Origin: Oscillospiraceae bacterium
Lineage (GTDB): Bacteria; Bacillota; Clostridia; Oscillospirales; Ruminococcaceae
DNA length: 64,000 nucleotides
Reading direction: 5' to 3'
Assembly (NCBI GenBank): GCA_017465665.1
Contig: JAFTVU010000002.1
Coordinates: 93,002 to 157,001, forward strand
Shown: in pieces, positions 61,762-64,000 of the stretch
Layout: the number at the start of each line of letters is the position of its first letter
How positions within the stretch are numbered: the first letter of the stretch is position 1
The notes under the pieces: generated by a model
Database searches by the model: none
What the model was told of the DNA's origin: nothing
The model's input: only the letters and a program-made list of their open reading frames with translations
Translations under genes and position numbers: made by a program

Positions 61762-62589
61762 TCATTCAAACGGAGTGAATCTTACCCACTGATATTCTGC
61801 AGTAAGAGGAACTGTAGTATCGTCAAAGGCGTTCAGCCAGCCGTCAACGCCCTTGCCGCACCATGCGTTCATCATTATCTTGCTTTCTGTCACAGGGATG
61901 TTATCGGTAGCGGAATACACCTCAACACCGTCAACGAACCACACGATCTTGTCCTCGTGCCATTCGAATGCATAGGTGTGGAAATCCTCCGCAGCGTCGA
62001 AGCCAAGCTGGTGGATGTACTCATGACCGCCTCTGCTGTCTGTGAAATAATTGAACTGTACGATGGTGGTATCCTTGCCCAGGAACTCGATATCTATCTC
62101 ATCCCAGGGATTGTTGTCTGACGGGCCTGTATAGGTGAAGAACGAGGATACCGTGCCGTCGTTCTTGATAGGCTTCATGCAGACTTCATATCTTCCGTAG
62201 CCGTAGAAATCCTTGCTGCGGAACTCTCCTCCCGAATAGGGAATACCACCCGTGGGAGTTTTATCATTATCGATGATGAGCTGCATATTTCCGTCGTTGA
62301 AGGTTACATTGCTCTTGCGCCATGTAACGTTGAACATACTGCCATTCGTCCAGCCGTCGGCGCACTCCCAGCCCTGCGGCATTCCTTTTGTAAACTCTGC
62401 GTAGGCATGTCCCTCGGGAATGATCATCTCGGGCTCTGCTTCGATGGATTCGGCTGTTGTAGTTGTAATGCTGCTCTCAGCCGGCAAAGACGCTTCATCG
62501 GTAACAGCTGTGGCTCCATTGTCGCTCTCACAAGCAGTGAGCATAGCTACTGATAATAATAAAGGAAGAATTTTTGTTGTGTATTTCAT
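61762..62589 (-). CDS. GH16 beta-glucanase (licheninase-type) lipoprotein
   Basis: 275 residues. Lipobox LTAC (Cys20), a short linker (to about 55), then a GH16 jelly-roll. The active site is WDEIDIEFLGKD (about 162-172), with nucleophile E164, D166 and acid/base E168. Motifs VQFNYFTD, FDAAEDFHTYAFEWHEDKIVWFVDG and MMNAWCGKGVDGWLNAFDD are typical of beta-1,3-1,4-glucanases rather than agarases or laminarinases. It would act on mixed-linkage glucan at the cell surface. AGGAGGT precedes ATG. Confidence 0.93.
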   Translation of the reverse strand: MKYTTKILPLLLSVAMLTACESDNGATAVTDEASLPAESSITTTTAESIEAEPEMIIPEGHAYAEFTKGMPQGWECADGWTNGSMFNVTWRKSNVTFNDGNMQLIIDNDKTPTGGIPYSGGEFRSKDFYGYGRYEVCMKPIKNDGTVSSFFTYTGPSDNNPWDEIDIEFLGKDTTIVQFNYFTDSRGGHEYIHQLGFDAAEDFHTYAFEWHEDKIVWFVDGVEVYSATDNIPVTESKIMMNAWCGKGVDGWLNAFDDTTVPLTAEYQWVRFTPFE

Positions 62590-62704
62590 TTGATATACCT
62601 CCTGTCTGGTTTATAATACCATTTTATCATTTGTATCATGATTTAATTGGCACAAAATTGCTGTTTATATCAAAGTTTTGCTGTATATCGGAGCTATATG
62701 ATCG

Positions 62705-62720
62705 CATAAAAGTGATATAA
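62705..62720. promoter_or_regulatory. AAAAGTG motif between divergent GH16 and GH5 genes
   Basis: CATAAAAGTGATATAAAG shares its core with ATAAAAGTGAGATAT at the other GH5 promoter. It lies about 80 bases before the plus-strand GH5 start and about 115 before the GH16 start. Confidence 0.5.
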
Positions 62721-62800
62721 AGCGTAAATTTGTGCTATTCTTTTGCTTGAAACTGTGTTATACTCATAACATAAAACAGCACGGAAAGGCGGAAAAACAA

Positions 62801-63754
62801 ATGTTAAAGATCAAAGGTTTTTATAAAGGAGTAAATCTGGGCGGCTGGTTTTCGCAATGCGATTACAGCGAGGACAGGCTTGACAATTTTATTACAGAGC
62901 CTGATTTTGCAAAGATAGCATCCTGGGGGATCGATCATGTGCGTATCCCTGTAGATTACAACATTTTTGAAAACGATGACGGAACTTATAGCGAGAGCGG
63001 CTTTAAGCGCATCGACAAGGCTTTCGAGCTTTGCGAGAAATATAACCTGAATGCTGTGCTGGATCTCCATAAAACAGCAGGCTTCTCCTTTGATAGCTAC
63101 GGCGAGAGCGAGAGCGGCTTTTTTGAAAGCGAGGAGCTTCAGGAGCGCTTTTACCGTCTATGGGAGCAGTTTGCCGTCCGTTATGGAAAGCTTAGCGACA
63201 GAGTAGCATTCGAGCTGCTGAACGAAGTTACCGACAAGAGCTTTATAGATACCTGGAACGATATCTCATGCAGGTGCATCCAGCGCATAAGAAAATATGC
63301 TCCCGATACCATCATCCTTGTTGGCAGCTACTGGAACAACAGCGTTACCGCTGTGCCTGATCTTGCAAAGCCCTGTGATGACAAGGTGGTGTATAATTTC
63401 CACTGCTACGACCCGCTGAAGTTCACCCATCAGGGAGCATACTGGACTGATATGATAAACAAGGATGAGCGCTTCTCCTTTGATGAGAGCGGTATTACGC
63501 CCGAATACTTTGAGGAGATGTTTTCTGTTGCAATAGAAGCAGCAAAGAAAAACAACACCTCGCTTTATTGCGGAGAATATGGAGTTATCAACATCGTTTC
63601 TCCCGAGGATACCGTGAAATGGTTCAGGTGTATCAACAGCGTGCTTGAAAAGTATGGCATTGCACGCAGCGCATGGAGCTATAAGGAAATGGATTTCGGA
63701 TTATCTGACAGCCGCCTTGACAGCGTGCGCGGAGAGCTGCTGAAATATTTGTAA
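62801..63754 (+). CDS. Cytoplasmic GH5 glycosidase
   Basis: 317 residues with no signal peptide. The acid/base Glu is in FELLNEV (E142) and the nucleophile in LYCGEYGV (E259); GVNLGGWF at the start and VLDLHKTAG are further family marks. It is smaller than secreted GH5 enzymes and likely trims imported beta-gluco- or manno-oligosaccharides to monosaccharides. ATG at 62801 follows AAGGCGG; an upstream in-frame ATG has no ribosome site. Divergent from the GH16 gene, with a shared control region. It is the last gene before the repeat array. Confidence 0.9.
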   Translation: MLKIKGFYKGVNLGGWFSQCDYSEDRLDNFITEPDFAKIASWGIDHVRIPVDYNIFENDDGTYSESGFKRIDKAFELCEKYNLNAVLDLHKTAGFSFDSYGESESGFFESEELQERFYRLWEQFAVRYGKLSDRVAFELLNEVTDKSFIDTWNDISCRCIQRIRKYAPDTIILVGSYWNNSVTAVPDLAKPCDDKVVYNFHCYDPLKFTHQGAYWTDMINKDERFSFDESGITPEYFEEMFSVAIEAAKKNNTSLYCGEYGVINIVSPEDTVKWFRCINSVLEKYGIARSAWSYKEMDFGLSDSRLDSVRGELLKYL

Positions 63755-64000
63755 TATTATAAGAACCACACGCCGTTCTCCAAATCAAAGATTTGGACGG
63801 CTGAGTGAACCTTTGAATATATGTTTGTTGCTTCGCAACTGCTGACTTCGTCAGCTTGTGAGAACTCCGTTCTCACAGCATATATTATAAGAACCACACG
63901 CCGTTCTCCAAATCAAAGATTTGGACGGCTGAGTGAACCTTTGAATATATGTTTGTTGCTTCGCAACTGCTGACTTCGTCAGCTTGTGAGAACTCCGTTC
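63754..64000. repeat. 128-bp tandem repeat of hairpins and a cloverleaf-like fold
   Basis: Unit 1 is 63754-63881; unit 2 begins at 63882 and runs off the window, identical over its visible 119 bases. Each unit has an outer hairpin GCCGT/ACGGC enclosing CCAAATC-AAA-GATTTGG (63772-63801). It also has three perfect triloop hairpins: GTTGC-TTC-GCAAC (63827-63839), GCTGAC-TTC-GTCAGC (63841-63855) and GTGAGAAC-TCC-GTTCTCAC (63858-63876). AATATATG (63816-63823) can pair with CATATATT (63879-63886), closing the three arms as a cloverleaf. No gene is seen in it. Confidence 0.9.

Follow-up and report, generated by a model that had tools for sequence, protein, structure and literature searches.

Among small mobile and repeated DNAs, the IS110/bridge-RNA elements have a structured non-coding end and a junction that builds a promoter, and the ERIC sequence is one long palindrome with a TA target. 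ERIC/RU-1 (127 bp), RU-2 and RU-3 are presented in PMC2759123 as small mobile enterobacterial repeats found between genes. REP sequences, which go with RAYT proteins, are defined in PMC6006769 and PMC3733652 by a GTAG/GTGG (or CGTC) foot and a hairpin of 20-65 nt; the words Clostridi and Ruminococcus have 0 occurrences in PMC3733652.

The repeat analysed here lies at the right-hand end of the window, the whole stretch of 64,000 nucleotides that was studied, and is apparently a copy of a large and apparently undescribed group of tiny mobile hairpin DNA elements of gut bacteria; no description of such an element was recognised in searches of the open-access PMC literature. Like IS200/IS605 elements and PATEs it has hairpins, clearest joints without duplication, structure on one strand and a fixed short target at the left end that is echoed at the right. 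Unlike IS200/IS605, it is without demonstrated linkage to a Y1 gene, which was not found in several carriers, and it has four hairpins including a closed multi-branch, the centre of a -10-like hexamer as its target, and head-to-tail arrays. An internal strand of the element pairs with its left end; in IS200/IS605 elements a guide tetranucleotide 5' of the hairpin foot pairs with the target. With REP/REPIN-RAYT and the GTAG/CGTC palindromes it shares being short, mostly intergenic, palindromic, non-coding and present in many copies, but its 128 bp compare with 20-65 for REP, many of its copies lie at promoters, and a conserved GTAG/GTGG/CGTC foot is absent from the family alignment described below (A2). 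ERIC/RU-1 is of nearly equal length, and is likewise an intergenic, MITE-like small mobile sequence, whereas the present element comes from another phylum and has its junction at a -10 box. Structured non-coding DNA and a promoter-forming junction recall IS110, although the main carriers tested, except G015, are without an IS110 transposase. In contrast to a classical MITE, moved by a DDE transposase, the element has direct ends (TATAAT at both) and its clearest joints show no duplication. A CRISPR array also differs, since here the whole 128-bp unit repeats without spacers, which bears out the judgement of an earlier, sequence-only reading that the unit is too long and too structured for a CRISPR repeat.

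Tandem Repeats Finder places the array at 63754-64000, with a period of 128, 1.9 copies, 100% matches and 0 indels, so that the two tandem units reported from the sequence alone are real. They stand head-to-tail and are 100% identical over the 247 visible bases, the second being cut by the end of contig C144 (157,001 bases), which shares its last base with the window. In element terms unit 1 is 63759-63886 (ATAAGAACC...CATATATT, 128 bp), and the features of the locus are as follows.

63752..63758, unstranded: host DNA up to the junction; the stop codon TAA of the upstream gene (63752-63754) lies directly at the insertion
63759..63886, - strand: unit 1, 128 bp (sequence, Tandem Repeats Finder, copies elsewhere)
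63761..63813, - strand: hairpin 1, long and imperfect, beside the right (TTAT) end; the part best conserved across the family
63816..63823, unstranded: one side of the 8-bp helix, AATATATG on the + strand, enclosing the three small hairpins (sequence and RNAfold)
63827..63839, - strand: small hairpin a, GTTGC-TTC-GCAAC, loop TTC on + and GAA on - (sequence and RNAfold)
63841..63855, - strand: small hairpin b, GCTGAC-TTC-GTCAGC, loop TTC on + and GAA on - (sequence and RNAfold)
63857..63877, - strand: small hairpin c, TGTGAGAAC-TCC-GTTCTCACA, loop TCC on + and GGA on - (sequence and RNAfold)
63879..63886, unstranded: other side of the 8-bp helix (CATATATT on +), which is the left end of the element on the - strand (AATATATG) (sequence and RNAfold)
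63884..63889, - strand: unit junction TAT/AAT, where two successive units together make up a complete TATAAT
63887..64000, - strand: unit 2, 114 of 128 bases, same sequence as unit 1, cut by the contig end

All four hairpins proposed in the sequence-only reading, and the 8-bp helix around three of them, are thus found in place, both in the sequence and in the RNAfold structure. The upper part of hairpin 1 is CCAAATC-AAA-GATTTGG, with the inner stem CCAAATC/GATTTGG, and its outer stems are of the CGC/GCG type and AAG/CTT. Read on the - strand, unit 1 runs from AATATATG through the three small hairpins, the helix strand and hairpin 1 to GGTTCTTAT, which is the orientation of the main-subfamily copies that lie behind host promoters elsewhere. 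The fold is more stable than expected by chance, since none of 200 shuffled sequences was equally stable on either strand (z = -7.0 on the + strand and -4.9 on the - strand). A likeness of GTGCGGTTC to domain V of group II introns was dropped because the pairing partners differ. The array is preceded by a secreted glucanase-like gene on the - strand (61762-62589) and by an endoglucanase-like gene on the + strand (62732-63754) whose stop codon abuts it, both families being a reading of the sequence. No promoter is seen on the visible side of the window's own array, whose outer end lies beyond contig C144.

The genome of the window (G000, 2.87 Mb) also carries the unit in full on contigs C42 and C34, as a fragment on C48 and at the end of C55, together with further copies of sister subfamilies. 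On C55 the window's unit again breaks off at the contig end, and the truncated unit lies upstream of, not inside, a promoter TTGACA-17-TATAAT belonging to a thiC-like gene with a TPP-riboswitch-like leader (names read from the sequence). C144 and C55 may be two sides of one array; the genes neighbouring the two copies are on different contigs (C13 and C9) in G061, a relative with long contigs, and also in the fragmented genome G008. Assembly duplication, which the sequence-only reading had named as one outcome that would overturn it, is unlikely as a general explanation of the arrays because arrays with their own diverged units exist in other genomes.

Pairing is kept, with compensatory changes, in an alignment (A2) of 18 full units from the window genome and seven other genomes, so that the pairing predicted for related copies is borne out. 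Measured on a computed consensus structure without the middle small hairpin, 97.7% of 684 cells are paired, and both sides have changed in 14 of 38 pairs (52 cells), these counts being of sequences and not of independent events. For four of five measures the observed value was reached by none of 500 shuffles; the fifth, further pair types, was no better than the shuffles (20, against a shuffled mean of 20.5). Sliding the partners by one to three columns lowers the pairing to 34.5-40.2%.

The search of related genomes with a covariance model, as had been suggested, revealed a dispersed family. Of two models, R1 describes the unit and R2 a sister subfamily; R1 has matches in 13 of 43 genomes of the genus, R2 in 15, and one or both in 17. 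R2 matches number 37 in G008, 21 each in G000 and G017 and 11 in G061, some of them being main-subfamily units or antisense shadows. Across the order, R1 matches occur in 28 of 394 sampled genomes, from several families. Scanning named genomes with an exact pattern gave 23 stretches, eight of them (nine pattern matches) in the Roseburia-labelled MAG JAMPCH, and among named records the core hairpin occurs in MAGs that bear the labels Oscillospiraceae, Clostridia, Clostridiales and Roseburia. JAMPCH (G067; loci L106-L128) appears within the family of the window genome as G406, with which it is equated because the match positions are identical, and its label may be wrong. No match was found in viral contigs with the exact pattern, nor in phages and plasmids with blastn. 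Elements measure about 127-141 bp in the main subfamilies and less in some others, and have no gene of their own. Several genomes contain arrays, of two to at least four units, and these units are specific to the subfamily (two in G004:C52 and in G028:C39, four in G061:C9 and in G008:C307).

Many copies elsewhere are placed on what their sequence predicts to be sigma-A -10 boxes. On the r strand, the strand opposite to that of the window finding, a main-subfamily copy reads NAT/AATATATG, three hairpins, hairpin 1, GGTTCTTAT/flank, the slash marking the joint. The -35 region was scored for the 33 of 62 printed matches that are outermost ends with flank, sister, inner, truncated and contig-end copies being left out. 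A perfect TTGACA lies exactly 17 nt upstream of the terminal hexamer in 10 of these 33 ends, against at most one at each of the other spacings from 5 to 44, and 23 are without a perfect -35 at 17 nt. Where the hexamer is exactly TATAAT, a subset of 17 ends chosen after seeing the data, 10 have the perfect -35, compared with 34 of 271 intergenic TATAAT away from elements in the DNA compared (P ~2e-5). In the sister subfamilies TATAAT is directly followed by hairpin 1, and it is the other element strand that the promoter reads. Sister scoring covered 61 of 64 loci, L276 (TATACT), L254 and L283 (no TATAAT at start) being left out, and the signal is diluted by inner units among the 61. At 17 nt there are at least four of six -35 matches in 27 of the 61, the next best of the spacings from 8 to 31 reaching six, and the -35 is perfect in seven; a TGN extended -10 is present in 52 of 61, compared with 63 of the 271 background sites. 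Sister -35 matches of at least five (15 of 61) are no commoner than in this background (67 of 271), so the hexamer alone may be the direct target, with selection perhaps removing insertions elsewhere. A gene start preceded by three to six of six matches to AGGAGG lies 11-91 nt downstream in 25 hand-chosen loci, the best start within 220 nt being taken. The ten downstream products checked are of varied and ordinary function, namely ribosomal protein L32, a class I tRNA synthetase, homoserine O-succinyltransferase, 4-alpha-glucanotransferase, aldehyde dehydrogenase, HPr kinase, an S4-domain protein, a glycosyltransferase, a NUDIX protein and PrmA.

The joints can be read most directly where a relative has the same site empty. 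Joined flanks were searched in 43 genomes for 12 loci (11 main-subfamily, one sister) and for 14 sister loci; the joins of L247 and L270 were imperfect, and the matches inspected are a selection. Usable empty orthologues were obtained at eight loci, with the insertion in or at the -10 hexamer in six and just behind it in two. At L092 (G031) the empty site in G016 (L141) reads TTGAAA-17-TATAATAATATTAAC and the filled one GTATAAT/AATATATAT...GGTTCTTAT/AATATTAAC. At L094 (G015), in front of hprK, the empty site in G004 (L337) is TTGAAA-17-TATAATATAG and the filled one is split at TAT^AAT. The empty relative of L082 (G003, metA) in G035 (L149) has TTGACA-17-TATAAT, the right end of the element being degenerate. 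For L282 (G009) the -10 is in place in all four empty relatives, and the three of L271 (G017) have TAG, not TGN, before the hexamer. L242 (G008), with three units, has TATAAT on its left and TATACT on its right, the empty site in G061 (L322) being TATACT. The two insertions behind the box are L071 (G008, rpmF), which against five relatives lies 17 nt downstream of the -10 hexamer, in CTATAAAAGAG, and fits exactly without a 3-bp duplication, and L090 (G015), which against G004 (L340) lies about 2 nt downstream of a TATACT box.

The clearest joints fit insertion at TAT^NNT without target duplication, as judged from the exact fits at L092 and L071 and from the asymmetry of the hexamers at L242. 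At several joints, for example L094, no duplication and a 3-bp duplication look alike; a 3-bp duplication of AAT fits many joints but not L071, L114 and L242. At L276 both flanking hexamers are TATACT, an outcome not expected from the no-duplication model and one that speaks for a 3-bp duplication or a mutated end. Right-hand hexamers vary in their second half (TATACT at L066, L236, L238, L242 and L276, TATAGT at L072, TATATT at L277), in a table of 38 rows of which several are mis-anchored. The triplet after the main-subfamily right end, GGTTCTTAT or a close variant of it, is AAT in 20 of 30 cases and differs in 10. Since the start of the element was itself located by looking for AAT, part of the constancy of this starting triplet in that count is built in, and the case for a constant AAT start rests on the empty sites.

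The stable loops are fixed to one strand of the element. Loops of the form G..A lie on the r strand in 35 of 72 distinct hairpins of the main subfamily and on the other strand in four, the rest having neither, and in the sisters they lie on the same element strand in 88 of 165 distinct hairpins, compared with five on the other, again with neither in the rest; triloops pooled over main and sister copies give 49 against 4 of 112. Host promoters read r in main-subfamily copies and + in sister copies. Because the G..A loops stay on one strand while the promoter reads opposite strands, the structured strand appears to be DNA. GNA loops form very stable minihairpins in DNA. A strand test based on G-U wobbles was inconsistent, with 10 on - and one on + in the 25 best rows and 27 against 31 in the 50 best, and a model-free tally gave 4 vs 5 and 2 vs 8; with no consistent strand, the test was not used.

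Taken from these sequence comparisons, the units are probably copies of a short non-autonomous mobile DNA element that inserts in a -10-like hexamer and re-forms TATAAT at both junctions; of the guesses made in the sequence-only reading, a DNA-hairpin mobile element was the best. The hexamer would be entered at its centre (TAT^NNT), with no target duplication. Because the element brings AAT at its 5' end and TAT at its 3' end, outer and unit junctions would read TATAAT or nearly so. The upstream promoter would keep a readable -10 box and the element would become the 5' leader of the gene. A fresh TATAAT would also remain available to a further copy, and because each junction regenerates the target, copies would line up head to tail with a period of one element length, 128 in the window. 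Movement would presumably be as a single folded DNA strand carrying the G..A loops, its hairpins recognised by an enzyme supplied in trans, much as in IS200/IS605 single-strand transposition.

No mobilising enzyme was identified, Y1 (Y1_Tnp) and IS110 having been checked as movers; neither is supported by its occurrence in carriers. IS110 transposase is present in three of 14 genomes tested, among them the carrier G015 and also G014, which has a weak single element match, and was not found in G067, G008, G017, G003, G000, G004 or G028. Y1_Tnp matches occur in nine of 43 genomes of the genus and do not track copy number. It is nonetheless possible, if doubtful, that a Y1 (HuH) transposase moves the repeat, which would then be a non-autonomous IS200/IS605 element (PATE) or of the REP type. 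The hairpins, the strand-specific loops and the clearest joints without duplication would all suit such a mover, and a short target beside the left end, repeated at the right end, can be compared with the mechanism set out in PMC6006769. Carriers G008, G015 and G028 have a Y1 gene, and G000 has interrupted pieces of one. Against this, Y1_Tnp is absent from carriers G017, G061, G003, G004 and JAMPCH/G067, several of them with high copy numbers, although this is weak evidence because several genomes are incomplete MAGs; the ten Y1 loci examined have one weak element-model match nearby, the alignment shows no GTAG/CGTC tag, and three small hairpins lie within an enclosing helix.

A tyrosine or serine recombinase that has a very short core and integrates circles joined at TATAAT seems an unlikely mover. 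The tandem junction TAT/AAT is what a circle junction is predicted to be and a crossover core of at most 2 bp also fits the joints, but L071 would require the core AA, not TA, and such a recombinase has no need of a strand-fixed loop signature.

That the fold works in the transcript, as a cis- or trans-acting leader RNA family spread together with its promoter, is quite improbable, and the proposal of a repeated structured RNA as the functional entity is not upheld. Covariation is strong, copies would be transcribed leaders if the promoters work, and G..A loops are stable in RNA too. The transcribed strand, however, is the G..A-loop strand in the main subfamily and the opposite one in the sisters, so that the promoter-derived transcript switches strand between subfamilies while the loop bias stays fixed to one DNA strand. 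Wobbles are moreover rare in the 18-row alignment (G-U in three of 684 cells on + and in nine on the other strand), and the 8-bp helix uses the AAT of the -10 box, which would lie upstream of the start site. No Rfam family reached its gathering score in 62500-64000 in a permissive-threshold search. Passive repeats spread by slippage or homologous recombination at palindromes, and in promoters by chance, are very improbable. Slippage or unequal exchange can build up arrays of identical units, but this reading does not account for the joints found at unrelated promoters whose orthologues are empty.

Returning to insertion in the -10-like hexamer, the box may be attractive because it is single-stranded in open promoter complexes, which is a guess. 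In this extended form, which we hold only tentatively and regard as doubtful, the gene-less elements would enter working promoters as folded single strands, at the melted -10 box, which they would rebuild on both sides, and open complexes, and not sequence alone, would be the landing site. If so, the elements could occupy ordinary promoters, such as those of the genes for ribosomal protein L32 and a class I tRNA synthetase and those of metA and hprK, without silencing them, arrays would stack, and transposition using the single-stranded DNA of the open complex would be tied to the start of transcription. The usual effect of a mobile element on a promoter is to damage or switch it, whereas the joints of this family leave a -10 box readable on both sides. 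In ordinary genes, and probably even in essential ones, the element would thus be able to sit downstream of the -10 box and ahead of the ribosome-binding site and to re-target its own junctions, and the family may account for hairpin-rich tandem leaders in the order and for some contig breaks in metagenome assemblies.

Several further observations concern neighbouring elements. At the hprK promoter a main-subfamily copy is present in two species (L092, L094) and G016 and G004 are empty, through shared ancestry or two insertions. Ahead of the sister copies at L099, L100 and L103 there is an inverted junction copy (ATTATACCATAACC-N4-GGTTATGGTATAAT). At the NUDIX promoter of L282 the relative G036 (L324) carries another kind of hairpin element at the equivalent position, apparently through an independent insertion; in L324 (G036:C35:19000-20000, printed 301-720) the last hairpin loop is TTGACA, and -35, 17 nt and TATAAT are found at both ends. 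A second hairpin element of about 85 bp also ends in TATAAT and is nested in, or lies directly beside, hairpin 1 of main-subfamily copies (L085:1039-1255, L075:1899-2117, L074:1843-1943).
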